Assembly: GCA_963457665.1 (NCBI GenBank) | Contig: OY735227.1 | Location: 48,035,252-48,099,251 of the forward strand | DNA: 64,000 bases | Direction of reading: 5' to 3' | DNA from: Thysanoteuthis rhombus | Lineage: Eukaryota; Mollusca; Cephalopoda; Oegopsida; Thysanoteuthidae | Shown: piece after piece, positions 13,601-59,388 of the stretch | Numbering within the stretch: the stretch's first letter is position 1 | Layout of the letters: every line of letters begins with the position of its first letter | Position numbers and translations under genes: made by a program | The notes under the pieces: generated by a model | What the model was told of the DNA's origin: nothing | Seen by the model: only the letters and a program-made list of their open reading frames with translations | Database searches by the model: none

Positions 13601-16600
13601 CACGACTTATTTGGATGCACACGGAGCAATTTCAAAAAGATGTTTAAAGCTCTGATGGGGTGCATTCTGCCATAATTTATTTGGAAATAGCAATATAGCT
13701 ACGCACACACACACACACACACACACATGCACACACATACCGATACTTTCAACAAAATCACTGAAATATTTATAAAAACTCCCTTGACACTTGATCGTTA
13801 ATCAAATATGGATTAGCGACTGGCATGCTTTCCAGGAATACTTTTTTTTATATATTCAAACCAATATATGACGAATCGCTTCGCTGATGGTCATCATGAG
13901 TGCACAAATAAAAGTTCATGTAATGTTAGGTGGAAAATTCGAGAAGGGTTTAGCCTTAACCAATAACACTTTAATGGCATCAGGTTACTTTGAATGATCA
14001 TTTTCTTTAATCAATACGTATGTGCATTTGTGGGGTTTCCTGTTGGGGGTGGTCTCACCAACTATACTAAACCAGCCGTGGTTCTGGGTTAGTAAAAGGA
14101 GGCAACAAGACGGAATTTCGTTTATACGTTTTATATAGAATATTGATTATTAATATCTCTGGAGACGGGAAATGGCTATTCGCAGTTGAAAAGAGAGGAA
14201 GCTGATTATCATCAAAGTCAAAATGACGACTGGTCTCTCATGTCACGAACGGTAGTCTACTGAATGGTAGCAGCGGTTGACGGTTACTAAGGGCGGCGTC
14301 TAACACGAGAGAGAGCCTGGCAGCGAGTCTCTTCTCCAGACCCAAATTTTACTCTGCTTGCTTGTTACGAAAATTCTTCCTATTTAAGCCCTTGGTATCA
14401 ACACTGTATCTCTTTGTAATTGACTCCCTTTCTTTCTTTTTCCTGTTATCTCGACCTTTCCGGAAAAACCCAAAACATTGACCCTCATTCATCTCGCGAC
14501 GCAGGTCTGTTCAATATCATAAATTAGTCTCCCCCTCTCCCAAGGACTCTGCAAAAAACTTTTCTTTCATAAGCTTTTACTCTCTCTCTCTAGACCCCAG
14601 ACACTGACCCTTATATCTGGCTTTGTTTTCAAACCCAGGATTTGGCAGATGACACTAGATTGAAAAAGTACAGATAACTCAACTTCCCATGACATGGTCA
14701 TCGAATCGGGAACAAAACCTTTTTCCAAAAGCATTTGTTTTTGCAACCCAGGATTTGACAGATGACACTAGATTGAGAAATCGCAGATGCCCGCACCTGG
14801 AAGCACACAGTTCTCATATTATCTCGAAAAACACATTATCCCTTTTAACACAGATAACTCCTTTTGTAATAACAATAGTAATTACTGGTAATAACCATAG
14901 TAATTTTTGGTAACAGCCATAGTAATTTTCAGGACACGGGGGACTCCTGGCCCCCTAGTGTCACATATTATGCTATTTACTTACATGCATATAAGCAAAT
15001 TATTTCTTTGTGGACCACAATTTATGTTAGTTTCCTCTCTTCCTTTTCCTCATTATGGCGTTTACTCATTCATCTGGCTTGTTTTATATATTCTAAAATA
15101 AATACTTCTTAAATCAAGAAAATTAGTTGAATCTGATGTGACCAGAATGAACCTGAGTTTTCACGCATTTACAAAAAAATTTAGAAATGGAGACTACTCT
15201 CCCTACCATTCATTAGTTGACAAAAAAAAATTGATAGACGAACTGACACACTATAGAATAGATGGTGTGATGGGTAACATTTTTATACAGCTTGTATACA
15301 TAATGATTTGTCTTATTTCTTGCAGGTGAATTTAAAGAGGGTGGTTGGGGTAACGTTGTTACGAGTGCCAGTCGTATCAGAAGGAATCTAAAAGACATTT
15401 CTGCTGATGATGTGTTATCATTAAGAACCGCCTTCAGACGCATGACAGATGAGGGAAGATACGAGGAGATCGCCGCTTTCCATGGCCTACCAGCTCAGTG
15501 TCCCAATGCTGATGGTACTAAGGTACACACGTGTTGTCTGCATGGAATGCCAACCTTCCCACACTGGCATCGTCTCTATCTGTCTCTTGTCGAGAATGAA
15601 TTGCTGGCTAGGGGTTCAGCTTTATCGGTACCTTACTGGGACTGGATCGAACCTTTTGATGAACTTCCCGGTCTGATAAACGATGAAACTTACGAAGATC
15701 CCGTAACCAAGCAAATGATTGCGAATCCTTTTTTTAAAGGAGCAATTTCGTTCGAAAACGCCGAGACAACTCGATCCCCGCAACCTGACTTGTTTGGCAA
15801 CACATATTTTCTTGATAACGCTTTGCTCGCGTTTGAGCAGACTGACTTCTGTGATTTCGAAGTACAGTTCGAAATTCTTCACAACTACCTTCACTCGTGG
15901 CTTGGCGGGCCAAATTCTCGCTCAATGTCTTCGCTGGACTACACTGCATACGACCCAGTATTTTTCCTCCATCATAGCGCTATTGATCGTCTATGGGCCA
16001 TTTGGCAGGAACTGCAGCGTTACAGAAAATTAGATCATAATGTTGCTAACTGCGCCCTTCATCTCCTTAGCAAACCTATGCGACCTTTCAGCAATGCAAC
16101 AGCCAACTCAGATCAGTTAACCTACACTAACAGCAGACCAAACGACGTATTTGACTACCAAAACAACTTGAAATATAAGTATGACACACTTGCTATTTCC
16201 GATTTGAATATTATCCAACTGGAGACATTGCTTGAAAATCGGAAGTCACGCGACCGAGTATTTGCCGGTTTTATGCTTCACGGCGTGAAGCTTTCGGCGG
16301 ATGTCCGTGTTTACATCTGTGTTCCAAGAGATGTCTATGTGGAAAACTGTCACAATTATGCTGGTATTTTCACTATTCTTGGAGGGGAAACAGAAATGCC
16401 CTGGAAGTTCGATCGTGTATTCCGTTATGAAATCACAGACGATATCAATAAATTAGGGCTCGGTGCCAACAGTCGCTTCCGTATTTCCACTGAGGTAACT
16501 GTGGTAAATGGATCCAAAATTTATCAGAAAATATTCCCTGCACCATCTGTCATTTTCGTCCCAGCTCAAGGTAAACGCTTTGAAATCATCTTTTATTATT

Positions 16601-19600
16601 TACTACTTTACCAATGACATAAAAATTAGTACTTCCTGAATATTAACTAAACTGAAAGAAAAATTAAGTAGATTTTTTTTTTTGGAAAAGTACATGTCCT
16701 AAGTGTTTCGGCGTCGCTTAGCACAAAACATAGTTCCGTAAGAACTAACATTGATTGTAGACACATTTTCTGCAGAATGATGAGACATTTTTTTTTTTAA
16801 TAAAAAAAATCAGACTACAGGACTTGGACCTGTATCTCTCTATGTGTCGTGTTTGTGGATAATTATAAACATTTTTCAGTTGGGAATATTAAGAAAAAAA
16901 AAACGCATTTCTGTCGGGAATATTGAGAAAAACGCATTACGATTAATTCTTCTCATTTATCATTCAGTTGTTTTAACTCCATCTCAAGATTTGGCTAGTG
17001 TTCGATCGGACAACAAAAGTTATGCTTACCTTTTGAGTTAATTTTTTTTTAGGGTGGAGAGTGGAGAATTTACAAGCCGTCAAATGCTGTATTTACAAAG
17101 TATTCTTGTTTTGTGTAAAATGGTTTGAGTCATGCTTATTTGTGTATGCTACTACCACTGACTAAGCAGCTGCAACCAATAAAGTTTGCGTATAGTTATA
17201 GTATAAAAAAATCCCTTCGTACTGTGATAACTTACTTTCTTGAAGTCTAAAGCTAACAACTAGGAATAGTTGAGCAAATCTGTAATGTTTGTTCCGTTAT
17301 TTCATAATGAGAGACAACATATTTAAATTTGTTTTACAGAACGCTCTACGCGAGTTTCGGCATCAAAATCCCTTCGAGGTAACTTGGTAAGAAAGAATGT
17401 TGACCGTTTATCTCTACAAGAGGTCAACTCTTTGGTGCATGCCTTTAAACGTATGCAGAAAGATCAATCTTCCGATGGCTTTGAGTCGATTGCTTCTTTC
17501 CACGCTCTTCCTCCTCTCTGTCCTAACCCAACTGCAAAACATCGCCATGCTTGCTGTCTTCATGGTATGGCTACTTTCCCTCAGTGGCACAGATTGTATG
17601 TTGTACAATTTGAACACTCCCTGAACAGACACGGCGCCATTGTCGGTGTACCATACTGGGATTGGACGTATCCCATGAAGGAGGTTCCACATTTACTTGC
17701 ATCTGAGAAGTATACTGATCCCTTCACCGGAGTGGAAACATTTAACCCCTTCAATCATGGCCATATTTCTTTCATCAGCCCTGAGACAATGACCGCACGT
17801 GAAGTCAGTGAGCATTTGTTTGAACAACCTGCTCTTGGAAAACAAACCTGGCTCTTTAACAACATCATTCTGGCACTGGAACAGACTGACTACTGTGACT
17901 TCGAAGTCCAATTCGAGATTGTTCATAATTCCATCCATTCTTGGCTGGGTGGAAAAGAACTTTATTCATTAAACCATTTGCACTATGCTGCCTACGACCC
18001 AGCTTTCTTCCTTCATCATGCCAATGTTGATCGTCTTTGGGTTATCTGGCAGGAATTGCAGAAGTTCAGAGGCCTGCCAGCTTACGAGTCGAATTGTGCT
18101 ATCGAATTGATGTCTCAGCCGCTAAAGCCCTTCTCCTTTGGAGCTCCCTATAACTTGAATCCAGTGACCACTAAATATTCCAAGCCGTCTGATGTATTCA
18201 ATTACAAAGAGAACTACAATTATGAATACGACATGTTGGAAATGAATGGAATGTCCATTGCACAGTTGGAGTCTTACATTCGACAAGAGAGGCAAAAAGA
18301 TCGCGTTTTTGCAGGATTTTTGCTCAAAGGATTTGGTAGTTCTGCCTACGCTACATTCCAAGTACGTATTATCTTATGAAGTTTATTTTATTGTTATGGT
18401 GTCCTTGAAAGGGAACTCTCTAATTCCATGAAGTTTTTGAACTAGTTACTTGATCCAATGTGTGTTTCAGCCTTTCTCAAACACATACTGCATTCATTGA
18501 TCTTTTACAATAATTCGTCATTTCTTCTTTCTCTTGCTTTAAGAATAAAATCACGGTTTAATAAAACCATGGAGCCTTGTACCTGAGTTTCGTTCTCAAC
18601 AGAATACTTTTATTAGACAAAACTAAAATTGACGACCTCTTTTTCACAAGAAAATTCCCCTTACGATAGCCCCCTTGATATGGAAAACTTTAACGTCCAA
18701 ATGAATTTCTCCCGGGCATTCGTTCCCGTGTTATAGTTTGATTATGAATACTTAAATGGGCGCTCCGTCATGGAGCAATTGTTGGGAATCTAGGCTCACA
18801 GACTTTTACTTATCTAGTGAGTCTTTTTCATTGTGTGTTCTTCACGTTGCTTAGTGCCAGACTAAGTTAAGCTTAGTAAATTTGAAAGACCAAGAAGCAA
18901 AAACTGACTAGCAAGATTTACTCTTTCGGACGATTGTCTTACTAAGGTAAATATATATCATATGAATAGGTAGGCTTACTGTTTAACAGGCCAGCCAAGC
19001 AGACCCTTACTAATGTAGTTAGATCGCACCTACTGGATGTTCCACAGCTGTGGCTATGTTCGATTAGGCGCCTAATCACGTAGCAATTGCTAACAAGCTA
19101 GGCACATAGACCATTACTACTCTATCGAGTTTGTATTGGTTCCACACTACGGTAAGCTTCGTAAATATAAGAGATCGCTGTGTGCAATGGTTAGCAAGCT
19201 AGTCTAGCAAAGCATTTCCACTATAGCTAGTTCTATCCTCAGTGGATGCTCTACACTTGTGGCCTTGTCCTAGTCTAAAGTACGCTTTATAAATACGTAG
19301 GGCAGTAGCTAACAAGCGAGGCTCACTGACCATGATGACTTGATGCCTAAGACTTGTGACATCGTATTTGACAATGCTTGCTGATCATCCAAATATAGAA
19401 GATAATCTTTGGCTAAACGATCGCAGATGTGAAGCTCCGTGTTGTGTGGATTAGAGGGATCAGGATTCGCCTAATGACCTAGTCGATAGTGCTTGTGCTC
19501 TATTAGTAGTAACATGGATCAAATAATGAAATGTTAGTGATAAAAATTTTAAAAAATCATTGATATTTCTGTCACTCTTATATTATCAGTAGCAAAAAAT

Positions 19601-21412
19601 ACTTCTTAGGATGTAAGTAACGTCGCAGAGTCGGAACAATAGAAATATCATTTTTGAAAAGTCATATTGAAATGATTTGGCTTTTTTTCTCAAGTTACTC
19701 TTTTGCAAAGCTTGACGTGACAATTTGTTTGTTTAGATTTGCCCTGACGTTGGTGATTGCCGCGAGGGAAGTCATTTCTCTGTGTTGGGCGGAAGCACAG
19801 AAATGCCTTGGGCTTTTGATCGTCTCTACAAAATGGAAATAACAGACATTTTGCGAGCTATGAATTTGAATTTTGATTCTCACTTTACCATCAAAACCAA
19901 CATCGTCGCTAATAACGGAACTGAGTTACCTGAAAATCTTTTACCAGAAGCGACCATCGTCCGCGTCCCGCCTGCAAGTGAGTCTTCTTTTTGAAAAATA
20001 TTTGATGTTATAAACTAATTTTTAACACTTCTATCGAATTACTTTTAGTGGGGAACCTCTATCAAATTTTCACACAGTTTCCACATATTTAGTATTCCCA
20101 TCAAAATACACTAGGAACCTTCGCAGGTATTCTAGTATCACACATGCAATTCTCTCAACACTATTTCCATTCCGTTGCTCAAAAAAAATGTTAGCAGTAA
20201 TTTCCTTTTCCTTGCACTTGATTGTCAGCAAAGAAAAATCGCTGCATGAATGGACACCTTCCAATCACCCATCAGTGGTTGTTGCCATTCCAATTAACTG
20301 CAAGAAAAAGAAAATAGAATTAACATCCTCTAAGTACTCTATTTTTAGCAAATTATAACGAAATGAATTTCATATCTTTCAAGGAACGGACATTGAAGTG
20401 ACAATTCCATTGAACAGAATTAGACGAAATATCAATTCTCTAGAATCTCGAGATGTTCAGAATCTCATGTCAGCACTGAAACGTCTGAAGGAAGATGAAA
20501 GTGATTTTGGCTTCCAAACAATTGCCGGTTACCATGGTGATATGATGTGCCCAACACCCGAGGCTCCTGAATACGCTTGCTGTCTGCACGGTATGCCGAC
20601 CTTCCCACACTGGCACAGAGTTTATCTGCTCCACTTTGAAGATGCTATGCGTCGCCATGGTGCCAGTGTAGCTGTTCCCTATTGGGACTGGACTATGCCG
20701 GCTGATCGTCTACCTTCGCTTTTGGGTGATGCTGATTATTACGATGCTTGGACTGATTCTGTGATTGAGAATCCTTTCTTGCGAGGTTACATCAAATACG
20801 AAGATACATACACTGTGAGAGATACACAGGCCGAGTTGTTCGCTCTGGCAGAAGGACACAAAGAATCGACACTTTACAAAGATGTTATGCTGATGTTTGA
20901 ACAAGAAGACTATTGTGATTTTGAAGTACAGTTTGAAGTGATCCACAATTCGATCCATTATCTCATTGGCGGTCACCAGAAATATGCCATGTCCAATTTG
21001 ATGTATTCATCCTTTGATCCAATCTTCTATGTCCATCACTCAATGGTAAGCGAAATTGTTTTTGCTGATAGAAAACCTTTCATTTCACGCCTGTCTTGCG
21101 AGCATTATTTCTAATATAAGCTTTTTATGTGGTTAAGTTATGGCAAAACTTAATTGTGTACAACAGTATCAACAACAAAATACTCGTTGTGATATTCCCC
21201 TGCCTTCATCATCGCTACTGCAAAAGGCGGGATTAGAAAGGATGGAAATTCAACAATTCATTGAAACTTTCCAGCTGGAGACTGAGTATTTTGAGGAAGG
21301 TCATGGAGATTCTAGACGATTTTGTTTGAATTGATCTCAGGCACCAGCCACCAGATATCTAGTTTTGACATGCAAATGCATGAAATACAACAACAACAAC
21401 AACAACAACAAC

Positions 21413-21478
<66 letters not shown>

Positions 21479-24376: not shown

Positions 24377-24428
<52 letters not shown>

Positions 24429-27400
24429 GTCTTTTAGCGTCCATCGTTGGACATAGACCTTCCCCAGGATTTGCCACACTTCTCTATCATAGGCGTCACG
24501 GAGCCAGTACTTCCTGAACTTGTCTAGCTCGTCTCTCCATCTAACATTTTGCCGGCCTCGGTTGGTCTCGGGGAATCCATGTTGTGAGTCGTGATGTTTG
24601 CCATGTCGCGATTGTCTGCCATTCTTGCAACATGGTCAGCCCACCGCCATTTGAGATTTTTTTAATGGATTCTATGATGTCTCTAACTCTTGTCTTTTCC
24701 CGGATGTACTGTGCTGTTTTGTGGTCTCTCCATGTGAGGCCCAGCATTATTCTCCCATGTGCACGTTGCATGGTTCTCAGCTTACGGGTCTGTCTCTTGG
24801 TTAAGTTCCATGTTTCAGCTCCATAAGTGACTATTGGGAGGATGCATTGGTTGTACACCCTTCTCTTTAGGATCTTATTATTTTTGAAGGTTGAGCTAGC
24901 TCTGCCAAAGGCTTGCCATCCTAGTGTGATTCTTTGCTTGATTTCTTCTTCTTTTGAGGGTCTCATGGAGATTCGTTGTCCTAGGTAGATGTAGTGGTCT
25001 ACTTTCTCGAGTTCTGTGTCCTCGATTTCGATCTTAGTGTTTTTATCTCCAATGTGGTTGTTGCACATGATCTTCGTCTTGCTGAAGTTCATGTGTAGGC
25101 CGACTTTCTTGCTCTCTTCATTTAGTTTATCTATCATTAGTTGGAGGTCGTGTAGGCTCTCTGCAAAAAGGGCTATGTCGTTTGCAAATATGAGGTTGCT
25201 CAGATACTCGCCGTCTATTTTAATTCCTTTATTCTCCCAGTCTAGCCTTCTGAAAATCATCTCGAGGCAGGCTGTGAAGAGTTTAGGTGAGCTGGTATCA
25301 CCTTGTCTTACTCATTTCTGGAGCTGGAAGGGGTCTGAGTCTTTATGTAGCCTGATAAATGAGCTGCTGTGATTGTATATATGTTTCAACACTTCAACAT
25401 ATACTGGATCAACACCTTGCCGACTGATGGCCTCCATGACCTTAGGGATTTCTACTGAGTCGAACGCCTTTTTGAAGTCGATAAATGCTACGGCAAGTGA
25501 TAGTTTATACTCTGCTGCTTTTTCTTTCAGTTGATTTATCGAGTGCAGGTGGTCCATCGTCGAGTAGCTTCTTCTAAAGCCAGCCTGTTCACGTGGCTGG
25601 TTTTCATCGAGTGTTTTTGTGATTCGGTTGGTGATGATTTTTGTGAAAAGTTTGTATACACAGTTGAGTAGGCTTATAGGCCTATAGTTATTGAGGTCTT
25701 TCGGGTTTCTGTGTTTTAATTCTTAACAAATCTTATTTGATTGTACTACAGTAATTATTATTGGAGAAAAGGTTTGTAAAACAAATTCTGTGATACAAAA
25801 ATTTGTATATTTTCTGCTAGAATTAAGACTAATTCTTTTAAATAATTTCATCAAAACATTATGTCATTATCTTGCAAGGGAGATAGCCTGGATATACACT
25901 ATAAATGATCTGCTGCTATTATTTGGACATTTTGAATCTCTGAAAATGGTTAGATTTTTACTGTTGATCAAATAATGCTATTTTAGATCTAAAAAAACTA
26001 CAATTTACTCAAGAATCAATACAGCATGTCGGTAAGATTAGGGTCAGTAGGCTATCCTTGCAAAGATGCATCTTGTAACCATTTTGATATGGGCCATTTT
26101 TATGGCTAAAAGTGTCTAGATTTTTAAAAAAATTGGTAAATTAATTTCATGGTTTCGTGATATCATTATGGTTCTGAAAGTTCTAAACGAGGAGTAGGTG
26201 GCGTAAAGAATGTTGGAGACGAAGGGATTTGTCTCCTTGTGGTTTGGTGTTCACAGTGGCGTCACCGGAGATGTGGAAGGAGAAAGGGAGATATACGAAG
26301 AGAATGTGCGCTATGTATGAACTTAGATGCAAAGATGAAATGAGGCAAAAAAGGAACACATACTAGTATTTGGATGGACAAATTTAATACTAGAACATTA
26401 ATGACTAATTAAAATGAAGTACATATAATGATAACATAAATCTGATCGATTGCGTAAAGAGATGAGAAGAGATAGTGAAAGGTGGAAGTTTTCTTGTCGT
26501 TAATAGTACAGTCGTCGGAGTCGCAATGGAGTTGTCTGGACTGCTTGTGAAACCGTATGGCTTGGATCGTACCAAGGAATACGTGGAAAGCGGGGTCAGT
26601 TTGCGAGCCGGACTGCCAAGTCGTGCGTGTGACTTGGGGACTATTCTCTGACACTGATAAACACTCGTTTGGTAGACCATTAAAGGCAGAGAACACGGAG
26701 TCTTATGCATGTTCCCCGAAGTAAAGAAAAATTAGGAAAAATTACCGTCAATCTGATAGTAAAAAGCATTGCTATTTCATTCATAAGAGTGAGAGGTGTA
26801 TACGCGTTTGGGGCACGTGGTGAGAACAAGGTGGCGTAGCTGCGTAGCTGTGCGTATGTGCAATGTCTCAACATCGGTAAAGTGAAATGGGCAAAGCTAG
26901 TACAGAGGTAGGTCACGGTGGAAAAATGGTCGTGATCGGATCGCCTGGGCTGTCGACGAAATGATAACGATCTTAGAGAGAGAGAGAGAGAGAGAGCAAC
27001 CGGCAACAAGTGCCGGGGCCAGAGGCAACCAGCAAGGAATCGGAAGGGGAAGTGACGTTTTCGATATCTAGCTAAAAGAAGGGTTTCGTATTTAATTCCT
27101 AACTAAAAGTATAGGGGGTGCTACAATGGTAACAATGTAGATTCTTCTTCCTCTGTATAAATGTGAAATTATCTAAGGTTCACACTCATCATACGCATGC
27201 GTATCATCATCATCATCATCATCATCATCCTGTTCATGTCCATCGTTGGACACAGACCTTCCCAAACATTTGAAAGATCTTTAGATCATGGGCATTGCAG
27301 AGCCAGTACTTACTGACTTGATCTAGCTCATCACACCGTCTTACTTTCTGTGGGCTATATCTTTGCATAGGTTGTGAGTCGCGATGTCCAGCAGTTGTCT

Positions 27401-28665: not shown

Positions 28666-31600
28666 TGGCAATTGAAAACATAAACTCTCCCCGTTATTAT
28701 CAGACCCCTTGTGATAATCAAGGAAGACAAAGTAAAGTATCTCACCAAAATCTCTGGCGATCTTCCTCTCTGTGAAATCCAGAGGATTGTGCTAACCGGC
28801 ACTGCCCGTATACTATCACCCGACTGCAACACACACTCACAAGACTGTAACAGACAAGCGAAATAAGACTTGGAGAGAGAAAATCGTACATCATACTTCT
28901 TTTGTTGGTAACAACTCGTCAAAGGACAGCGACCACTATATACCCGCAAGCTATCAATTCCAATTCCATGATTCTACACCTGCTCTACTATTATTGCACA
29001 ATACTGCCATCAACTCTCATGAACGATTGGGTGTTTAAGGTTAGCAATTTTAACCAATTATCATCTTTAATCGCCGTTACAATTATTAGTGTGGCATATA
29101 TGTATATATAAGTATGATACACACATATACGACGCATGAATAGTTTTTTTAAATAGAAATCATAGCAGCCTCACGAAAATCGGAACGAAAACGAAGTAAA
29201 AGTATTACGGAAACGTCAGACATACTTGTGTTACCCGGCTGGGAACCAAATGATGGGAATAAATTACTTTACTATGCATGAAAAAGAATTACGTGTTCTA
29301 ATATTTTATGTTTTTTTTTTTTTTTAAATATAAGCCTCCTTTATAACATGCTACATGCCATGCGCTTGCTTAATCCGCTTCTGTTCATATAGTTCTCATA
29401 GTGCAAGCACTTTTCACTTTTATTGCAGATCTAAAAAAAAGGTCTTCTATGTTCGTTCGCACCAGTCTGCTTACACATGATTTCAAACATTGTTCTATTC
29501 ATTTTTTTCAGGTTGATCGTCTGTGGGCCATCTGGCAGGATCTTCAGCAATACCGGAAGTTGCCACATGATAAAGCATATTGTGCCTTAGATCAAATGGC
29601 TTTTCCTATGAAGCCGTTTATCTGGGAATCAAACCCCAATCCAACAACTCGAGCCGTGTCTACACCCAGCAAATTATTTGACTTTAAATCTCTAGGTTAC
29701 AATTATGACAACTTGGATTTCCATGGGATGACCGTTGGTCAGTTAGAAGCTGCCCTTAAGAAACAACAAGAGAAAGACAGAGTGTTTGCTGGATTCTTGC
29801 TCCATGGAATCAAGACGTCGGCTGATGTTCATTTGAAGGTTTGTAACGAAGCTGATTGTCAAGAAGCTGGCGTTATCTTTGTCCTTGGTGGTGAAACAGA
29901 AATGCCATGGCATTTTGACCGCAACTTCAAGATGGACATTACAGATGTCCTCAAGAAAATGGAAGTAACAATTGAAGCACTTTTTGAGCATGAAAGCAAA
30001 TTGCACCTCGATGTAGAAATCAAATCTGTTGATGGAGCTGTCCTGGACTCCCGCTCACTCCCCAAACCAACTTTGATATACACACCGGCTAAAGGTATGT
30101 TCACACGCATTATATCTTCAATATCTTAGCAAAGGTAGTCCCGATTAAAATTCTACTGAAAGAAATAAAAGAATACAATATAGAAATTATATTGATACTA
30201 CTTTTGTTCATAAATGATCAGCATATCGCTTACTTGCGTGACGTCATGTGCCTTTGCCTGTACCTAGAGATTACAATGGACTGGACACTTTTGCAAAGGT
30301 GTGGTTTTTTATTCCGTGGTTTCGATTCTCACAGAATTGGCTCTTCTGATGCATTTATGTTTGTACGTATCATTGTTCTCTGTTTATATCCTCATCGCAG
30401 GGGTAGATACACACAGGTAGTTGTTTATAATACCCACTTTCAGCTTGTCAGGCCTGTCGAAGTTTTGTTCTGCTTACGGCACTCGGTATTCCACAATGGT
30501 CACTCTGCTCAGTACTGACCAGGCTCGACATTGCTCAATTGCGGTTATCTTACAAGAACCAATGTATATGCCGTGATTTTAGTCGTAATCCCTTAGCCAG
30601 GGAAAGGGTTCCCTCGGGAGGGGAGGTATTACCATTTTTAAGTATTTGGTATGATTCAGCGATAGATTGAACTCATGACCCACCGAACCCGAGGCAAGCA
30701 ATCTACCGCTGAGCCACAATAATTTTTTTTCATATCTATCACCTCTAAAATATTCCAGGTTCTGGGGCGAAGCATTTTCATTATTCCACATATTTTTGTA
30801 TCTTCTATCTTGTTTATTATTACAACCTATTTTGATTACCTTGTATTTGTTGTTGTTGTTGAGGTCATTTGGGTTTCTGAAATGAAGTATTTTACTGGTG
30901 GGTAGACCACAGGTTCAATCCATGTCTTGCCACCTTTGTTATACGCCTTCTGAATCCCCAGATGCAATATTAGTAGTTGTTTAAGGTTCGAAAAGGATTC
31001 CATTATCCTGCTCATTTCCGATGAGTATTACTGATACTTTGAATACCTAGTAGTAGTAGAAGTAGTTATCGGCAGTCTGCTTACGTATGATTTCAAACAT
31101 TGATCTATTTTCATTGCTGCTCTCCCCCAACGTGAATCGACCACGCGTTATAAAATCATATGATGTCACACAAGCCACATCACTTATCTAACGTGGCATA
31201 CCAACGTAATACAACAACGTCGAACAACTTTTCTTGGTTGAGTCATGTCATTGCACCTAACATTTGATTTCTGGCACTATTCATGAAGGAGAGCGACAAT
31301 CGTCCATACTAGATTCTGTAGTCTACTATGATCTTTCTCTAACTTATCAGACTTGAGTAAATGTATTTCTTAACCTAACAGATTCTGATCTGATTTTTTT
31401 TAAGAACGGAAGGTTCATCAGAAGAAACCATACGTCGAAGGAATTTTGATCAGAAAGAACGTGGATACTTTAACTCAATCAGAGATCAGTAACCTGAGAG
31501 AAGCTTTGGCCCTTGTCCAGGCAGACACCACAAGCACTGGTTACCAGAAAATCGCCTCTTTCCACGGAATGCCCCTTAGCTGTAACTATCCGAACGGAAC

Positions 31601-45387: not shown

Positions 45388-46620
45388 TTAAAATGCATGT
45401 AGAGATTTGATAGTAAAAATGCGAGCTTTCATTTCTCTACTTGATTTTTCGCATTTATTTTTCTGTTCTTCAATTCCATTGGAATTTGATTGAGAGTTAT
45501 GCAGCATAAAATTGACGAAACCTTTTGTATTCACGGTTTCTGGAATGAATGCTAGTCTATCCATAGAAATAGTATCATGTACATTTTCTGATATTTCAAA
45601 GTTTAAATGATTCTCTTTACGGCTCAATGCTTTATAGCGTCCTGAGTATTGAGCTTCTAGAAATTTTCTAACTCTGTCTGTAACCACACGTATTCACATT
45701 TTTCAAGTCTATTTGTATATAAAAATCGAGTACAGAATGTATGCACCCTCTTAATAATGCGTCCACGTCGAATCTTTTTTTGATTAATTGCTTTACTGGT
45801 AAGTTTGATACTACAATTTATTCGTATTCATATCGATTCATGATTGGGGAACTTGCGTATTAGTGCCAGTTACAGCACTAAATGAAGAGTGAAATATCTC
45901 ACTTGGTATCATTTTGATGCTGCAACGATTGCTATTTTGGGAGTTTAATGAACACGGTCCCATTTGTTTATTGGTGCTAGGATGTCGTTCTTGGTCTGTT
46001 GAAGCCCATTATTTTCGACAATTCTGAAAACAATTTCGATTTGAGTTGGGAGTCCCTATCCGTGATGACATGGAGTGGGACTCAAAATCTAGATATCCAC
46101 GTTTCAACAACCCCCCCAGCTGTAGTTTGTGCTGCTATTTCTATAAATGAACAAGCTTCTATCCATCAAGTACTTTTATCGATACGCATTAGTAAATAGT
46201 AATAGGGTTAGAAGTAGGAGTCGGTGAGTTTTGCAACTGGAAAGGCCAACAATATCCACATGTATTGCTTAGAAGCGAGGAGAAAGCAATTCAAATGGAT
46301 GAAATGCACTCATAGTATGTTTGATAATTCTAGCTCCTTGAAAAAGATCACATTCTTTACAACTTGTTCTATCATTTTGCTCATTTCTGGCCAATAATAC
46401 CAAAATTTTATGAATTCTATGAAAGCTAATGTTCCAGGATGAAATAAATTTTGTAAACTGTAAAACACAAACCTCTTGATCTTTTGTGTAACAAAAGTTC
46501 CTGGGTAATGTAGTGACACATTGCTTAGTAGAGTTTGATCTTTGTTTAGTGAATACGGTTTCAATTTATCATGAAATTGCTTGGTTTCTGTGCCCGTGAC
46601 TTGACTTGGAACTGGAATGC
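45388..46620 (-). pseudogene. Ty3/gypsy-like integrase remnant
   Basis: On the minus strand, in order: LFHPGTLAFIEFI..YYWPEM near 46430-46380 (integrase zinc-finger region), IHVDIVG near 46260 (start of the catalytic core), VITDRDSQLKSKLFSELSK near 46070-46010 (core around the second catalytic Asp), and YSGRYKALSR...SMDRL near 45640-45555 (C-terminal GPY-like module). Several stops and shifts break the frame. No reverse transcriptase part or LTRs were seen next to it. The right end runs straight into minisatellite array 2. Confidence 0.7.
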
Positions 46621-48485
46621 GGTTGGTATTTCACTCAGGAGGAAGAATGCATAATGGAAAGTGGGTAATGATAAAAAAAAAAAAGAATTCTAAATGGATC
46701 AAGAATTCTTTTACCATTATCCAGTGAAATACCTATCCAATTCCAGTTCAATATTGAGTTCACTCTTCTATAAATATTAACTTCTCAAAGTACATTCCCC
46801 CCTGAGTGAAATAAAAACCAAATTTCTGTTCCATTTTCAATGATATAAGAATGAAATGAAAATGAAAAAAGAATTGGGTTGCTATTTAACTCAGTGGAGG
46901 AATATTTAATGGTAAGTGGATAATGATAAAAGAATGAATTCAAGGTGGGACTGGAATGGGGTTGGTATTTTATTCAGAGGGAGGAATATATAACGGGAAG
47001 TAGATAACTGTAAAAGAATGAATTCGAAATGGAACTGAATGAGGTAGGTATTTAATTCAGAGGAAGGAATGTATAATGAAAAGTAGATAATGATAAAAGA
47101 ATGAATTCAAAATGGAACTGGAATGGTGTTGGTATTTTACACAGGGAAAGGAATGCATAATGATAAATAGATATTGATGAAATAATGAATTAAAATGGAA
47201 CTGGAATTTGGTTGGTATATTATTCAGGGGAAAGAATGTATAATAGTAATTGGATAACGTTAAGAGGATAAATTCAAAATAGAACTCAAATGGGTCGGTA
47301 CTTTAATATATCATGAACAGTGGATAATGATAGAAGAATGAATGCAAAGTGATACTCGAATGGGGTTATTATTTCACTCTGGGGAAGGATAGTATAATGA
47401 GAAATTAGTAATAATTAAAGAATGAATTCAAAATGGAACTGGCATTGGGTTGGTATTTTACTCAGGGGAATGAATGTATAATGGTAAGTGGATAAAGGTA
47501 AAAGAATGAATTCAAAATGGAACTGGGATTGAGTTTGGTATTTCATTCAGGGGGAGGGATGTATTTGATAACAGTTAAAGAATGTATTCAAAATAGAACT
47601 GGAATGGAGTTTGTATTTCACTCTGAGGGAGAAATGTATAATCGGATAATGATAAAAGAATGAATTTCAGATGGAATTGGAATAAAGTTGGTATTTCACT
47701 CAGGCTAAGGAATGTATAATGGAATGTGATAACCATAAAAGAATGAATTCAAAATGGAACTGGAATGAAGTTGGTTTTTCACTCAGAGGAAGGAATGTAT
47801 AATGGTAAGTAGATAACGGTAAAAGAATGAATTCAAAATCAAAGACGGAAATGGTTGTTATTTTACTCAATGGAGGAATATATCATGGTAAGTGTAAAAT
47901 AAAAAAAGAATCAATCGGAAGTTGGGTTGGTATCATAAAAAAAAAATGAATTCAAATTAGAATTGGAATGGGGTTGGTACTTTACTAAGGTGAAGGGAGG
48001 TATGATGTTCAGGGGATAACAGTAAAAGAATTAATTTGAAATTCAACTGGAATAGGGTTGGTATTTGGGGGATGTATAATGGTAAGTGGACAATGATAAA
48101 AGAATGAATTCAAGATGGAACTGGAATGGGGTTAATATTTCACTCAGGGTAAGGAATGTGTAATGGTAAGTTGATAACGGTAATAGAATGTATTCAAAAT
48201 GGAACTGGAATTTGGTCGCTATTTCACTCGTTGGAGGAATGTATAATGTGGATAATGGTAAAAGAATGAATTTGAAATAGAACTTGAATGGTGAAGGAAT
48301 GTATAATGGTAAGTGGACAGTGATAAAAGAATGTATTCAAAATGGAATTATGAATGGGATTCGTATTCCACTCAGGGAAAGTAACGTATAATGGAAAGTG
48401 TATAATGAAAAAAAAATGAATTTAAAATGGAAAGGGGTTGGACAGATGTTTCACTCAAGGGGAGGAATGTATGATTGAAAGTGAG
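46600..48485. repeat. Minisatellite array 2, ~84-bp unit
   Basis: The unit reads 'AAAAGAATGAATTCAAAATG', 'GAACTGGAATGGGGTTGGTA', 'TTTCACTCAGGGGAAGGAAT', 'GTATAATGGTAAGTGGATAA', 'TGAT'. About twenty copies follow each other with point changes and small deletions, the last ones near 48480. There is no coding potential across the array. Confidence 0.9.
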
Positions 48486-49302: not shown

Positions 49303-49322
49303 TTAATAGCGCAACTGTGTTC
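49303..49322 (-). CDS. Hemocyanin gene 2, terminal exon with stop codon
   Basis: On the minus strand the acceptor TTTCTTTCAG is followed by two bases completing Gly, then Thr-Gln-Leu-Arg-Tyr and TAA at 49305-49303. The coding length equals that of gene 1, but the last three residues differ (Leu-Arg-Tyr against His-His-Arg). Confidence 0.85.
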
Positions 49323-52300
49323 CTGAAAGAAAAAAGAAGTCAGATTACTCAATTAATAGAAACTTGCTTCTCTCTTTGAAAATAGCAGATAAGTTACCTC
49401 TCCCTTCAAGAACAAGCGGTAAGTTACTTTTCTTTTCAAGGACAAGCGTGAATGTTTTGGGATGAAAACTAAGTAATCAATGCAGCATAAACATTACAAT
49501 TGTACCCTCCAACTAAATCCTCTCTAAAGGCGTTCGTAGAGTAAGTGCTTAAGTTTTCTGCACTCCAACTGCATAGGTGCAGTTTGTACACGTGGTACAG
49601 GCATGCATACATACATGGGCAGCCAGCTGGATTAACTTGATACTGAAGAAACCTCTGTTGACAGTTTTGATGACGATTTTTCATACAATTCCATCGCATT
49701 AAAAACACACGTTTGGTTCAAGTATTTTATTTTGATAAATGCAGTTAATTCATTTATCTTTTCACAATTTTCTAAAATTCTGATATTAAAAGTTTCCATT
49801 ATTCCATTCACTATTCGGACTGTTTTCCTTCTTAGTATTATTTGGTATTTTGAGATGAACTTTCATTAGTTCATGAATAAATCGTACTAACATCCTTACA
49901 TTTCATATTTGACAACAGCATCAGACGTCTCTATTTGGAATTCCTGTATCAGTTTCTATTGGCTTACGATTTGTGAAATCGACGTAGAGGTGACAAGCAT
50001 CTGAAGTGGCGTCACTCACTTCACCAAATAAGGCAACTCACCATCGAGTTGTGTTTGCAGGTAAGTCTAGCAGACTGTAGTCAGTTCAGTTCTCACTGTG
50101 ACCCACATTTATATCCTTATGCCAGACTGAACTAAGCTTAGTAAATATCGCAGTTCGCTTTGCAAACACATCCCCACTATACTGAGTTCGATACTTACTA
50201 GATTCGCTGTAATTGTAGCCTTGTACATGATTAGTTACTGAATCACTTCATTGTAAAACAGCGGTAAGCAAGCTCCTTTTGCAGAATATTACTATTGTTG
50301 AGATTTCGATTCTACGTGGATACCCAACAATTGTTACCTTGCTCCTGACTTTGCTAGTTCTCTTATAGATGAGATTCATAGTCTTGTGTTTAACTTTAAA
50401 TTTTCCCGTTTTGAAAGCCGGTCTTTTAAACTTCAGGGTTTGACCAGCTACGACAGGGCGCTTAGTTTGGAGGGAATGTTGTGCCTAAGTTCCATTCCCC
50501 CTCCCTTTCGACTGGACTGAAGGCTTTCAAAAGAAAGAAAAGTTTATCGACTACGATTTTGCCGTGATTAAAATAGAATTATTTCAACTTAATTAATACA
50601 ACAATAAAATGTTTAAGGGAATATATAGATCGAAGAGATGTGTTTTTGGAATTAATTCTCACCTGTTCCGGGTTTAAAGAGGATGGTTGGCGTTGGAAGA
50701 AGAGTAGAAGGTAGAGATTTGCCATCAATACCCATAATTGTAACTTTGATATCAAAGTCATCATGAGCGTCAAGTCTAAGATGTACCAAACTCCTCGAAA
50801 TGTCGTACAAGAAGAGTCTGTCAAATGCCCATGGCATTTCGTAATCGCCTCCCAGAACACAGAAGGTGCCACCAAATGTACATTCTCCGTCCTTGCGACA
50901 AATGTCGAAGTTAACGTCAGCTGATTGGCCAATGGCTCGGAGCAGGAATCCGGCGAACACTCTGTCTTTCTCTTGTATCTTCTTCAAGTGGACTTCCAAC
51001 TGAGGAATGGTCATGCCGTGGAAATTCAAATGGTCATACTCATAGCCAAGTTGGTGGTAGTCGAACGACTTGATGCCCGTTGAATAGGCTTTAGTAACCT
51101 CGTTCGGGTTCTCTTCAGAGCTGAACGGCATCATTGGTTTCTTGAGTTTATTGATCTCACAATTGGCACTATTATAAGGTAAACCACGGTATTTCTGTAG
51201 AGCTTGCCAAATAGCCCAGATTCGATCCGTGTTAGAGTGGTGCACATAGAAAAGCGGATCGTAAGAAGTGTAGTGAAGAGTTGACATACCATAAGGACTT
51301 GGTCCACCAACCCATGAATGGATGGCGTTGTGGCCCATTTCGAACTGAATTTCAAAATCGCAGAAGTCTCTCTGTTCAAGAGCAAAGGCGATTTGGCGGT
51401 AGAAAAAAGACTGATCACCTTGCTCAGGGTCATCAAACAATTGTGGTCGAGGGTCTCTCGTTGTCTTTGTGGCAGCAACATCGATATAACCATGATGGAA
51501 GGGGTTGTTCTTGGGCTCAGTTACCAAAATCGGGAGATGCTGGAAGGCAGTCGTCCAATCCCAGTATGGAATACCAATTTTGGCACCTTTAGCTTTTAGA
51601 GCGTCTTCCATTTGTTTCATGTAAAGTCTATGCCAGTGAGGGAAGGTGACCATTCCGTGTTGACAACAGGCAAAAGCAGTTCCGTTCGGATAGTTACAAC
51701 TAAGGGGCATTCCGTGGAAAGAAGCGATTTTTTGGTAGCCATTTTCTGTCTTATCAGCTTGAACAGCACCAAGGGCCTCACGTAGATTCTCAATTTCTGA
51801 TGGCGTTAAACTGTTCACATCCTTTCTCACCAAAGTTCCAGCTTCATGTTCAACCATGGATTGAATCACCAAACCTTGAAAGGGGAAAGATGAAGGTTAG
51901 TTTATCAAATGAAAATTAATAGAACGAAACCATAAACAAAAAAAATTCATTATAAATTTCTCAATATGAACAATGGAGGAATTTGCGGAAAAAAACAAAA
52001 CAAAAACATTGATATGCGTAATAATGAAAATACTTCATTTCATAATCTTAAAACAACTTGGGTACACAACAGCTATAATTATTTAGTAATCAACAATACT
52101 ACACTGTCAATCTTCGCGAAAATCTCATTCAAGGTATCCTTAGAAGTCCAGACCCCAAAGATAACCTCAAAAAGTTCTGATATAAATAATTGTAATTGCT
52201 TCTCTACTTTACGCCAATCCAGCTTACGAAAGTTTTCAGAGAAATGCTTTACTTTTGGATAACAAGGGAAACGATTACTCAATGAATACATAGTTGAGAA

Positions 52301-55300
52301 CTAACCTTTAGCTGGTGCATAAATCAAAGATGGTTTTGGGAGTGAATCAGGACCCAGAATGGTTCCATCAACAGATTTGATCTCCACCTCTAAATGGATT
52401 TTGCTGTTATGTTCGAAAAGAGCTTCCATGGGAATTTGCATATCTTTGAGGACATCTGTAATGTCCATCTTGAAGTTGCGGTCAAAATGCCATGGCATTT
52501 CTGTTTTGCCACCAAGGACAAAGATAACGCCAGCTTCTTGACAATCAGCTTCGTTACAAACCTTCAAATGAACGTCGGCCGACGTCTTGATTCCATGGAG
52601 CAAGAATCCAGCAAACACTCTGTCTTTCTTTTGTTGTTTCTTAAGGGCAGCTTCTAACTGACCAACGGTCATGCCATGGAAATCTAAGTTGTCATAATTG
52701 TAACCTAGAGATTTAAAGTCAAATAATTTGCTGGGTGTAGACACGGCTCGAGTTGTTGGATTGGGGTTTGATTCCCAGATAAACGGCTTCATAGGAAAAG
52801 CCATTTGATCTAAGGCACAATATGCTTTATCATGTGGCAACTTCCGATAATTTTGAAGATCTTGCCAGATGGCCCAAAGACGATCGACCTGAAAAAAAAA
52901 CGAATAGATCAATATTCAAAATCATGCATTGGTTGACTTATGGGAAGGGGCACAGAAGACCGTTTTTAGATTTGCATCAGAATTGAAGAATGCTTGCACT
53001 GTATGAGTTAAATGAATATTTACGATTTTTGAAATTTCTTCAGAAGTCATGCATTTTATATATTTTTTGTTGTTTTATTCGATGTCCCCACCACACATCT
53101 TGTGGCTGCAGCTGAAAATCATGTGGGATAGAGTCTTCCGAAATCTCCACATTTTCCTTTATGCTTGCAGCCCGTAAAAGTCTCATTTCCAAGTTCCATT
53201 TCCAGCAGATTATTTCAATTCGTACTTATGCTCGTGTTAGCGACATGGATCCACTTTCCATGTGCTCTATTCTATTACAAGATATGCAAACAAAATATAT
53301 TGTTTTCGCTGGAATACAGGGGTTGACGGAGAATGGAATTAGCGAGCAATTACCTCATATACACATGCAGAAGCAACAGTAAACTGTAACCTCTTTCCCA
53401 TCTTTGACAGGGATCAAACTAGTATTTTATTGTTGTCCTATTCTGCACAATTGAGTTTCGGTTCAACTGACCTACGCAAGAGTCTTTTTTAAAGAAAACA
53501 CTAACGTTATAATTGTAAGCAGTTGGTAAGACAGTTGTGAAATGAAAGGTTTTCTATCAGAAAAACAATTTCGCTTACCATTGAGTGATGGACATAGAAG
53601 ATTGGATCAAAGGATGAATACATCAAATTGGACATGGCATATTTCTGGTGACCGCCAATGAGATAATGGATCGAATTGTGGATCACTTCAAACTGTACTT
53701 CAAAATCACAATAGTCTTCTTGTTCAAACATCAGCATAACATCTTTGTAAAGTGTCGATTCTTTGTGTCCTTCTGCCAGAGCGAACAACTCGGCCTGTGT
53801 ATCTCTCACAGTGTATGTATCTTCGTATTTGATGTAACCTCGCAAGAAAGGATTCTCAATCACAGAATCAGTCCAAGCATCGTAATAATCAGCATCACCC
53901 AAAAGCGAAGGTAGACGATCAGCCGGCATAGTCCAGTCCCAATAGGGAACAGCTACACTGGCACCATGGCGACGCATAGCATCTTCAAAGTGGAGCAGAT
54001 AAACTCTGTGCCAGTGAGGGAAGGTCGGCATACCGTGCAGACAGCAAGCGTATTCAGGAGCCTCGGGTGTTGGGCACATCATATCACCATGGTAACCAGC
54101 AATTGTTTGGAAGCCAAAATCACTTTCATCTTCCTTCAGACGTTTCAGTGCTGACATGAGATTCTGAACATCTCGAGATTCTAGAGAATTGATATTTCGT
54201 CTAATTCTGTTCAATGGAATTGCCACTTCAAGATTTTGTGCTGTGCAAAAAATATGAACAGTAATTAGGAATCAGATGCTTATATACGAGATCGACTTAT
54301 ACTCAAGTACATACGGTATTTGGCAAATTTGTAAAAGACTTTACGGTGTAAGAAGAAAAATTACAGATATCTACAAAGTTCAACCATGTCTGATGTAAGA
54401 CTGGTGAAGACAGTGTTACACCAGTCATTCGAATGGGAAGTGCCTGCTTGCCTTTAAAAACGACTTCCAGAACTCAAACACTTGTGCTTGTGACGTGCAG
54501 TTCATCACCCCAGCCATCAAAATGGTTCATATACCTAAAAGGAAGTAAAGTCAAATCACCATGAAAATCAGCCTTCGAAATTTGGGGCCCAAAGATTGAC
54601 CATTTGACCCAGTGAGAAGTATGCAACTGTATCAGCCACTAAACAGATCATTATAGATGAAATAAAAGAGGATCTGCTTGCCATAAAAATCAATCTTTGA
54701 TGTCTAGGACACGAACATCTACGACTGGCGTCAGTGAGATTTACGCTGGCAGACTCAATATACATAAAAATCAGTCTTCGAAAGCCTGATCTCACATCAT
54801 AAGCCTGGAGCTTAGTATATAGTATGCAACTACTTCAGCCACCGAATGGGATAAGGACTGGGGCAATATAATTTACTTATAATGAACAGTGTGGTTTTCT
54901 TGGTTTTCCGTCCTTAACCATGGTTTCTAATGAAATTCAAATCCAATGTCACTGCTTTTTGAAAGTTCGCTTTCCACAACTTTTTGGTTCTTCAAAAAAG
55001 TCAGTCGACAAAACTTTCAGCTTTCGTTTTGCAATCATTTATTATAGAGGCAATAGACACCCTCTTCGTCTCTCTTCTACACCCAATCTCTTGAACCTCC
55101 CAACACCATAACAAACATTTCTTACCATGTTTTGGTCAGGGAACGATAAAATGTATTTCTCTTATGAAATTGTGATAATTCTATCTATTCTCAGCACAAT
55201 TTCGGCTTACGAAAGGCTTTCATTGTTACGCTTTAAAGCGGGAGAAACTGTCTATCCATGAATTTCTCTCTTGCATGAATTGAATTGTGGAATATATAAT

Positions 55301-57572
55301 TGTGGTATTTGGTTATTTACCTGAAGGTGGGATACGGATGATGGTTGCTTCTGGTAAAAGACTTTCAGGTAATTCGGTTCCGTTTTGAGCGACTATCTTC
55401 GTTTTGATGGTAAAGTGAGAACCAAAATTCAAATTCATAGCTTGCAAAATGTCTGTTATTTCCATTTTGTAGAGACGATCAAAAGCCCAAGGCATTTCTG
55501 TGCTTCCGCCCAACACAGAGAAATGACTTCCCTCGAGGCAATCACCAACGTCTGGGCAAACCTAAACAAACAAATTGTCACGTCAAGCTTTGTAAAAGAG
55601 TAACTTGAGAAAATGCCATATCATTTCAATATGACTTTTCACAAATGATATTTCTATCGTCTACGACATTACTTACATCACAGGAAGTATTTTCATCTTA
55701 TAGAAAAAAATTCGCTTACAATATCAAGAATGTGATTTCTTTTGAAATCTTATTATTACTACTCCACTGTACGTCGCATCACTCACAGTTTTCAAAATTG
55801 TACAAAAACAGAGTTGGGTGATGGCTGCTACTGATTCTATAAGTATAACATATGAGGTTGGAAAATTAAGTAGTTTAAAAAAAGGTAGTTTCCTTCAAGA
55901 ATGCAGCATTTACCAAAAGGAAGGCTGAAGCGCCCACTGGTTGAAAGACGGTGATAAAGACAACATGGATTAAAATACTAGTTTTTGAATTGCTTTTGTT
56001 TTCAAAACATTATGACGCTAAAATAAACTTCAAAAGATAATACGTACTTGGAATGTAGCGTAGGCAGAACTACCAAATCCTTCAAGCAAAAATCCAGCAA
56101 AAACGCGATCTTTTTGTTTCTCTTGTCGAATGTAAGACTCCAACTGTGCAATGGACATTCCATTCATTTCCAACATGTCGTATTCATAATTGTAGTTCTC
56201 TTTGTAATTGAATACATCAGACGGCTTGGAATATTTAGTGGTCACTGGATTCAAGTTATAGGGAGCTCCAAAGGAGAAGGGCTTTAGCGGCTGAGACATC
56301 AATTCGATAGCACAATTCGACTCGTAAGCTGGCAGGCCTCTGAACTTCTGCAATTCCTGCCAGATAACCCAAAGACGATCAACATTGGCATGATGAAGGA
56401 AGAAAGCTGGGTCGTAGGCAGCATAGTGCAAATGGTTTAATGAATAAAGTTCTTTTCCACCCAGCCAAGAATGGATGGAATTATGAACAATCTCGAATTG
56501 GACTTCGAAGTCACAGTAGTCAGTCTGTTCCAGTGCCAGAATGATGTTGTTAAAGAGCCAGGTTTGTTTTCCAAGAGCAGGTTGTTCAAACAAATGCTCA
56601 CTGACTTCACGTGCGGTCATTGTCTCAGGGCTGATGAAAGAAATGTGGCCATGATTGAAGGGGTTAAATGTTTCCACTCCGGTGAAGGGATCAGTATACT
56701 TCTCAGATGCAAGTAAATGTGGAACCTCCTTCATGGGATACGTCCAATCCCAGTATGGTACACCGACAATGGCGCCGTGTCTGTTCAGGGAGTGTTCAAA
56801 TTGTACAACATACAATCTGTGCCACTGAGGGAAAGTAGCCATACCATGAAGACAACAAGCATGGCGATGTTTTGCAGTTGGGTTAGGACAGAGAGGAGGA
56901 AGAGCGTGGAAAGAGGCAATCGTCTCAAAGCCATCGGAAGATCGGTCTCTCTGCATACGTTTCAAGGCATGCACCAAAGAGTTGACCTCTTGTAGAGATA
57001 AACGGTCAACATTCTTTCGTACCAAATTACCTCGAACAGATTTTGATGTCGAAACCTGCCCTGTACGTTCTGTAATGAAAATATTTTGCCACATTATAGA
57101 AGAATGAAATTTTTACTCAAATTATGAAGACGTCTTAAATATATAGTAGTACCGGTTTAAGTCCAATCGCCAAAATAAAAATAAAAAATCAATATGATAC
57201 CTTGTTGTCAGAACAAAAAGCAGAGCAAAATTTTGAAATTCTCAGACAATCTTTCCGCGTTCAATGATCGTTGTTAAACAAGTACGGGTCAATTCCATTG
57301 CATTTATCGACGCTGAGGCATTCAGAGCATCTATATAATCGCCCATACACTCCAACATTTCAAGTTTTTTGAGCTTTTCATGAAGGATAAACTTTTCATT
57401 TTGTTTTCGAAGAATATCTTAAATTGGTATATCTCCTTTCAGCATTGTTAGGGAAGTATCTCAGAATCAAATGAAACAGATTTAGATAAGAAATTTAAAA
57501 AAATTATCTCCAAAGATTATCATATTCTGTTCCCCAATTCATAATCGGTCATTTCATGCCAAGCCCCCTCAA

Positions 57573-57622
<50 letters not shown>

Positions 57623-59388
57623 GTTTAAATTATTTTCATTTTAAATTTAGAACAGCCAGCAAAGAAAACAACCTCATCAAATTCTGACAAAATTTATTTG
57701 AACGACCATAACATCAGTTAGATCGGAAAAAAACATTGGTCAATTTTGTCATCAGTTTAAATAAGACATTCGTTCTTCTCTTGAGGAGTCTCTGAAGAAT
57801 CAAAATCATTTTAATTTCTTTCGTAAAACAACCAAAGTAGTCAAAATTATACCATAAATCAATTTTTTTATAACTGCAGTACATATTGCTTTGTTTGATA
57901 CTTTTTTAGTTTTATCTATCAAACTTTAATGTTTTAACTCTGAACTTTGAACTCTGTCCATTATTTGAGTCTTTATCCGCTCGGCCAGCCCCAAAAGAGA
58001 TTTTATAAAGATGGGATGAAGATAACTCACCTTTTCTGGGGACGAAAATGACACTTGGTGCTGGGAAGACGTCACTTGGCACTTTCGATCCATTGGAAGC
58101 AATGAGCTCTGTTGTAAGGCGGAATTTACTGTCTTCAGTTAAACGCAGTTTTTTCATCTCGTCGGTAATTTCGTAACGGAACAAACGGTCAAACTTCCAA
58201 GGCATTTCTGTGACTCCACCAAGAACAGCAAAGCTTCCAACAAAATTGTCACAGTCTTCATGTTCGACGCCAATAGGCACACATATATAAATATTGACAT
58301 CTGCAGATGCTTTGATACCATGAAGCCAAAAACCGGCAAAAACGCGGTCATGAGATTGTCTGCTCTCCAATAGATCGTCCAATCGGGGGATACTAAGACC
58401 AGAGAAGGAAAGAGTGTCAAATTTATAATTCAAGCTGTTTTGATAGTCGAAGACATCATTAGGTCGGCTGTTCATGAAGGTTAGATGATCTTGATTGGCT
58501 GTTTTATTGTTGAATGGTCGCATTGGATCGCTAAGAAGATGGAGAGCACAGTTTGCCACGTTATAGTCCATTTTTCGGTAGCGCTGCAAATCTTGCCAAA
58601 TGGCCCACAAACGATCAACATTGCTATGATGGAGGAAAAAAATTGGGTCGTATGCAGCGAAATCCAAAGACGACATAGAATGTGGATTAGGACCTCCGAT
58701 CCAAGAATGGATCGAATTATGAAGGACCTCATAGTGGACTTCAAAGTCACAGAAATCAGTGTGTTCAAATGCATACAAGGCATGTTCGTAAAGATATCTG
58801 TTGTTGAAAAGCTGATCACGAGGTTCCCGTACAGTCACGGCATTAGCGAAGGAAATTTTCCCATGATGGAATGGGTTTTCAATATCTTCATTTGTTTTTG
58901 GATGTTTGAATGTTTCTTCACTTATTAGGCTTGGAAGCTTGTCAAACGGTTCAATCCAGTCCCAGTAGGGTACAGCCACGTCAGAACCCCTGGCTAACAA
59001 CTCATTCTCGACTAAGGATAGATAGAGACGGTGCCAGTGTGGGAATGTCGGCATACCATGTAAACAACATGTGTGTATACTAGAACCATCGGCGTTTGGG
59101 CACTGAGCCGGTAAACCGTGGAAAGAAGCAATTTCCTCATATCTTCCATCGTCAGACATACGTTTGAAAGCTGTTTGTATGGATAACATATCTTCTTGAG
59201 AGAAATCTTTCAGATTCCGTCTGATACGGTTGGCGCTAGTGACGACATCTCTCCAAGTATCTTCTTCAAATTCAGCTGGAAAACGAGGAAATATTTTATT
59301 TGCTTACGAAAACATGAGAAAATAAGAAAAGAAATTTAAGAGGTGTTTATATATGCATGTGTGTCTATATATGCATGTGTTTGAATGT

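Follow-up and report, generated by a model that had tools for sequence, protein, structure and literature searches.

Probable exon-confined gene conversion between two hemocyanin genes of Thysanoteuthis rhombus, with FU-d' left untouched

Hemocyanin genes of the window and of the genome

The hemocyanin genes of Thysanoteuthis rhombus were analysed in the window, which is the whole stretch of 64,000 nucleotides at C32:48035252-48099251 of the 2.73-Gb genome, and were compared with their relatives elsewhere in the assembly. A search of the genome with PF00264 gave at least 66 exon matches, the best candidates being scored, and exon tables were built from these. The exon limits are the limits of the open frames, so that a few intron-edge codons are included in some counts. 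Two genes lie tail to tail in the window, gene A on the plus strand and gene B on the minus strand, the latter extending beyond the right window edge; both show the squid-type order a-b-c-d-d'-e-f-g. The open frames of gene B (all minus strand) are FU-g (50655-51896), the second and first exons of FU-f (52304-52915 and 53510-54271), the second and first exons of FU-e (55316-55561 and 56033-57112), FU-d' (58031-59275), FU-d (59974-61293) and FU-c (61541-62812). The FU-a of gene B is located to the right of the window end. Reverse-transcriptase-like open reading frames (24544-25722, minus strand) lie within the 8.3-kb intron between the two FU-f exons of gene A, an intron of 493 bp in gene B, and by eye from their translation they probably represent a LINE insertion. 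An open frame resembling a retroelement integrase fragment, also judged by eye, is present between the two genes (46313-46630, minus strand).

Gene C is on the same contig about 41 kb further on and carries both d and d'. The exon tables revealed eight unit frames in order in genes A, B and C, which is the squid-type chain with a duplicated FU-d. Genes D (C32:26208365-26223495) and E (C32:26253322-26274135), also on this contig about 22 Mb off, are octopus-like, with seven units and without d'. A tblastn search of their regions with three d' proteins gave one d-like exon per gene (64.7-67.7%), everything else being at or below 52%; the sole N run of the E region falls outside gene E. A sixth locus, F, is on C25. 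It holds on the minus strand an array (C25:56607662-56626488) in which nine d-like FU open frames stand in tandem, without a single mismatch over 9 x 1392 bp. Eight whole units, each about 2.18 kb long with introns, show 0-2 mismatches and 0-10 gap columns between any two of them and have plausible splice sites. Units of the c, d', e and f types come after the array, and neither a, b nor g was found at the locus. The array is either an amplification like that of mega-hemocyanin or an artefact of the assembly.

Divergence between genes A and B exon by exon

The FU-d' exons of gene A (15326-16570, plus strand) and gene B were both found to be intact open frames, running from stop to stop over 15307-16614 (plus) and 57915-59303 (minus). 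Two motif stretches of the type-3 copper site, one of 15 residues and the other HHS..DR, are kept in the d' of A, B, C and Todarodes; we take them to be the copper-ligand sites. The initial annotation had put the difference between the two d' units at about 30% in the first 142 or so residues; the count gave 37/142, or 26%, a little lower, and 128/414 (31%) over the whole exon. It had also described c, d, e, f and g as nearly identical, which agrees with the protein identities of c (95.7%), d (95.5%), e1 (96.3%), f1 (97.4%) and g (92.4%), that is 92.4-97.4%, and less well with those of e2 (85.4%) and f2 (90.9%). The near-identity further extends to FU-a (99.0%) and FU-b (b1 97.7%, b2 100%), units absent from that earlier list, as compared with 69.0% for d'.

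The synonymous divergence was calculated by the Nei-Gojobori method on the aligned open frames. The ten other pieces gave dS values of 0.023 (a), 0.037 (b1), 0 (b2), 0.080 (c), 0.143 (d), 0.065 (e1), 0.191 (e2), 0.036 (f1), 0.284 (f2) and 0.213 (g), while d' is saturated (pS 0.738, dS 3.1, dN 0.209), with a nucleotide identity of 70% and a third-position identity of 0.49. Synonymous sites are therefore far from equally diverged in d' and elsewhere (0.000-0.284), and the idea that d' alone has kept a deep divergence is not refuted on this ground. A GENECONV-type permutation on 2262 polymorphic sites of A, B and C gave a longest run of identity between A and B of 347 sites, whereas none of 2000 shuffles produced a run above 33; within d' the longest such run is 4 sites. 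The dS contrast and the permutation, in which 0/2000 shuffles reached 347, exclude chance or an error of the eye as the source of the contrast. The same permutation was significant for A/C (0/2000) and gave P 0.385 for B/C.

Conversion tracts were delimited with a two-state HMM on codon-aligned nucleotides. The tract fraction for A/B was 1.00 in FU-a (gene A 1743-2990), 0.97 in b1, 1.00 in b2, 0.90 in c, 0.85 in d, 0.94 in e1, 0.65 in e2, 0.96 in f1, 0.73 in f2 and 0.82 in g, as against 0.00 in d', which has no tract with B or with C. The FU-b block of gene A (3896-7584; b1, its intron, b2 and part of the next intron) forms a tract that takes in introns, with 96.5% identity over 3704 columns, and the b2 open frame is identical at 966/966 nt. 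The FU-c frame (8188-9444) has a tract at about 8233-9398 with a small gap, and old-divergence islands at both ends and at about 8644-8677; these coordinates are approximate, and the 5' island takes in intron-edge codons. The main tract of FU-d (10784-11650) has 9 differences in 867 nt and an identical run of 501 nt, and a second tract lies at about 11715-11932. At the 3' end of this exon (11933-12038) 28/106 nt differ and the third-position identity is 0.47, which is d'-like. The first exon of FU-e carries a tract (17391-18373) with 13 differences in 983 nt; the second (19737-19982) begins as a tract and passes into an old island. A tract occupies 20371-21063 in the first exon of FU-f, the second (29503-30096) ends in an island at about 29955-30096 with 39/142 nt different, and FU-g (31440-32624) has old islands at about 31440-31556 and 31684-31775. 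All these gene A features are on the plus strand.

The identity profiles place the ends of the tracts within exons; exon d, for instance, drops from 100% to 73% inside its own 3' part. Identical tracts beyond chance, with ends inside the gene, are thus present between A and B by both the permutation and the HMM. Nine islands, most of them close to an exon end, lie in c, d, e2, f2 and g; they have 167/232 residues identical (72%) and a third-position identity of 120/232 (0.52), close to d' with 287/416 (69%) and 0.49, a likeness that is partly by construction because the HMM chose the islands for their divergence. These small islands would show about the same depth of the A/B split as d'. The islands of c are nearer to Todarodes in A (20 vs 16 of 24) and those of d and e2 in B (45 vs 39 of 51; 22 vs 20 of 24), so that together they are mixed and give no donor direction.

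In seven introns from c to g, alignable sequence is limited to the surroundings of the splice sites and to some short stretches, including about 200 nt before e2 at 82%. The intron lengths in A and B are 1334/301, 3286/710, 813/998, 1360/471, 377/1057, 8272/493 and 1319/464. With the same settings the b1-b2 intron aligns at 99.6% and the 1.3 kb after b2 at about 98% (98.4%); parts of the a-b1 intron align at 76-80%. Since most introns have diverged past alignment, the tracts are mostly confined to exons.

Other gene pairs and trees of the units

Gene C presents a similar patchwork with its own d' untouched, in which b2, e2 and f2 escape as well. For A/C the dS was 0.130 (a), 0.087 (c), 0.162 (e1), 0.526 (g), 0.815 (f1), 0.924 (d) and 1.28 (b1), and saturated for b2, d', e2 and f2; B/C followed a like pattern. 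The A/C tract fractions were a 0.87, b1 0.21, b2 0, c 1.00, d 0.25, d' 0, e1 0.81, e2 0, f1 0.20, f2 0 and g 0.61, and those of B/C a 0.85, b1 0.21, b2 0, c 0.95, d 0.21, d' 0, e1 0.78, e2 0, f1 0.20, f2 0.04 and g 0.61. Genes D and E have exon-limited tracts with each other, in a genome whose A, B and C have d'. Their dS was 0.245 (c), 0.277 (g), 0.504 (a), 0.656 (d), 0.658 (b1) and 1.77 (e1), with b2, e2, f1 and f2 saturated, and their tract fractions were a 0.59, b1 0.50, b2 0.04, c 0.69, d 0.49, e1 0.21, g 0.76 and 0 for e2, f1 and f2. The matches of A/C and B/C in e1 and of D/E in c and g end close to the open-frame limits; those of A/C and B/C in exon c continue 70-180 nt beyond the frame.

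Between the two clusters, 22 Mb apart, none of the six pairs of A, B or C with D or E had a 90-nt window at or above 95%. An identical run of 38 nt in FU-d occurs in all six pairs and exceeds the shuffle bounds of 24-29 without being a tract, as does a run of 26 nt between A d' and C d' (bound 20). Conversion from d to d' was also considered and rejected: eight d/d' comparisons showed no tract, with longest runs of 15-26 nt, the run of 26 nt between A d' and D d being the sole one above its bound (22).

The phylogenetic comparisons used DNA of the own genome and, as the sole other species, Todarodes proteins from PDB chains. The tree of d-type units was computed from fourteen proteins under LG+C20+F+G4, one of two identical array rows (F_x9) being omitted. 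In it the d' of A, B, C and Todarodes and a d-type unit of locus F form one clade (100/99), which suggests a single origin of d' ahead of the separation of these genes. This unit of locus F (L023), lying outside the array, is of the d' lineage and is sister to the d' of gene C (L020) with 78% amino acid identity and support of 100/100. The d' of B is sister to that of Todarodes (100/100), with A d' outside (92/89), and forcing A d' and B d' together cost 61 log units (AU p 3.4e-7). FU-d behaves in the opposite way: A and B exclude Todarodes (96/92), with AU p 0.046 against a pairing of B d with Todarodes d. Separate trees of a, b, c, d, d' and e against Todarodes (SH-aLRT/bootstrap) united A and B for d (94.9/95) and b (87.1/89), and together with C for a (95.7/81), the supports of a and b being below the usual cut-offs; the c and e trees left the grouping weak (bootstraps 43-72). 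The paralogs within the species are closer to each other than to the orthologue for d, more weakly so for b and a, and the opposite holds for d'. The topologies of d' and FU-d imply that A and B, as recorded in d', parted before the split from Todarodes. The unit trees imply that homogenisation of the other units, clearest for d, took place at least in part later than the Todarodes split.

Codon omega was estimated in IQ-TREE (GY+F3X4) on gene sets that differ between units. The values were 0.131 for d' (A, B, C, F); 0.132 for d, 0.073 for b2, 0.064 for f2 and 0.119 for e2 (B, C, D, E); and 0.118 for a, 0.146 for c, 0.113 for g, 0.087 for e1 and 0.119 for d (A, D, E). The pairwise dN/dS of d' between A and B is 0.07, which is unreliable at saturation. 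Judged from these codon sequences, d' is under constraint like the other units.

Explanations and comparison with known systems

The initial annotation offered two readings, conversion that homogenises the other units and skips d', or selection for d' to differ. The former is supported by the dS contrast, the introns, the tract ends within exons and the unit trees, and probably A and B are old paralogs homogenised by gene conversion largely confined to exons, with d' left untouched. The two genes would be old duplicates in which recurrent conversion has since made all units but d' nearly identical; FU-d' was not overwritten and so kept the original depth of the split. We infer that gene conversion, and not some other kind of recurrent exchange between exons, is the process at work. 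A recent duplication of the whole gene, followed by replacement of A d' alone from a third ancient paralog now lost or outside the assembly, would likewise yield one divergent exon amid nearly identical coding sequence, and A d' is indeed a deep lineage. Such a duplication should have left alignable introns, however, and seven hardly align, and old islands are present outside d'. A third-paralog origin, envisaged from the start, was looked for in the own genome and not found: among 71 matches to A d', the best candidates being scored, the best non-self matches were B d' (69%) and the FU-d of A and B (70%), and nothing but A d' itself exceeded 70%. A donor since lost is possible; the replacement as a whole is unlikely. 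Still less credible is an assembly in which mixed reads of A and B made the exons look alike. Long identical stretches such as the b2 frame are prone to misassembly, but the divergence of the tracts varies from 0 to about 3%, the tracts end inside exons beside diverged introns, and D and E, at a different locus, show such tracts as well.

Selection for d' to differ is not supported, as the whole-domain omega of 0.131 lies far below 1 and beside those of d and c. The dN of d' (0.21-0.28 in A/B, A/C and B/C; 0.255 and 0.282 in the latter two) is the highest of the unconverted or nearly unconverted exons in A/C and B/C, exceeding the 0.138-0.204 of b2, e2 and f2, but e2 in D/E is higher still (0.383) and synonymous sites are saturated. 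Diversifying selection between A and B is very improbable. A different role for selection, in which conversions into d' occur and are then removed for the sake of subunit identity or collar function, is a real though lesser possibility, and it may act together with the conversion described above. Among the exons longer than 1 kb in A/B, A/C and B/C, an HMM tract was found in 15/15 comparisons of a, c, d, e1 and g and in 0/3 of d'. Under a homogeneous Poisson model of tracts the escape of d' has P 0.0053 to 6e-6 for A/B, depending on tract length, but 0.22 to 0.03 for A/C; moreover the three comparisons lack independence, the rate clearly varies among exons, and escape is also seen in short ones. 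In A/C b2, e2 and f2 are also spared, in B/C nearly so, and in D/E the same holds for b2 (nearly), e2, f1 and f2. The inner collar, to which d' belongs, is where the squid architecture is unusual (PMC6503924), but FU-g is a collar unit as well and is converted. The escape of d' is no more than suggestive of a special status among exons, and selection against its conversion is possible. A barrier of divergence, chance or such selection could each be the reason for the escape. Most likely each d' lineage diverged early, until homology was too low for conversion, as in A/C and B/C d' exceeds the unconverted b2, e2 and f2 in dN by a factor of 1.4-2.0; selection against overwriting may have contributed.

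In the squid hemocyanin structure the inner collar is described as made by d' (d*) and g, with d* forming no FU dimer and occupying the space opposite the g dimers, and its authors consider the collar most probably linked to high cooperativity (PMC6503924). With d' in the collar, A and B would share the wall and differ inside; as g is converted too, no simple rule of wall and collar applies. The differences in d' could bear on assembly or oxygen binding, and the net charge from residue counts (A d' -12, B d' -20) is a lead only. A rather doubtful proposal is that co-existing subunits have their cylinder wall kept alike by conversion and their d' kept distinct by selection, this interior unit encoding subunit identity and varying cooperativity within a common shell. 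A unit of about 414 residues separates otherwise nearly identical subunits, and swaps of d' would therefore cleanly test the role of the extra unit.

The squid-type (type 4) hemocyanin of Todarodes pacificus (6r83, 4yd9) has the unit order of A and B. Its sequence is close to gene B, with 90% amino acid identity in d' (90.3% to 6r83), 94% in d (94.1%; B d to A d is about 95.5-96.6%) and 95% in e. A d', at 70%, has no close counterpart there, the PDB search having shown one subunit sequence only. Sepia officinalis is reported to have three eight-unit isoforms, SoH1-SoH3, and a split of SoH1 and SoH2 dated at about 100 million years (Thonig 2014, PMC3945787). Its unit trees conflict, d uniting SoH1 with SoH2 and d' SoH1 with SoH3, which that report puts down to substitution rates; neither "gene conversion" nor "recombination" occurs in its text (PMC3945787). 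Unit-wise conversion could be another explanation of this conflict. The whole Sepia isoforms are given as 77-82% identical (PMC3945787), unlike A and B with their near-identity outside d'. Trees of whole isoforms have served there to date both the isoforms and the divergences among cephalopods (PMC3945787); should conversion act on the units one exon at a time, trees of this kind would combine different histories, and for dating purposes d' may be the unit least affected.

Linker introns of gastropod hemocyanins have been compared in a passage that states no indication of concerted evolution and leaves gene conversion unmentioned (PMC7931591), and octopus haemocyanin alignments are described as checked for recombination by GARD ahead of selection tests (PMC4491423). 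Among the titles and abstract openings listed for gene conversion or concerted evolution with hemocyanin, none reports conversion in molluscan hemocyanin genes.

Exon-limited conversion with an escaping segment is familiar from opsin and globin paralogs. Genes A and B share with such systems the nearly identical exons in diverged introns, the clustering within the species and the sharp tract ends. Unlike those examples, the segment that escapes in A and B is an entire domain out of a chain of several.
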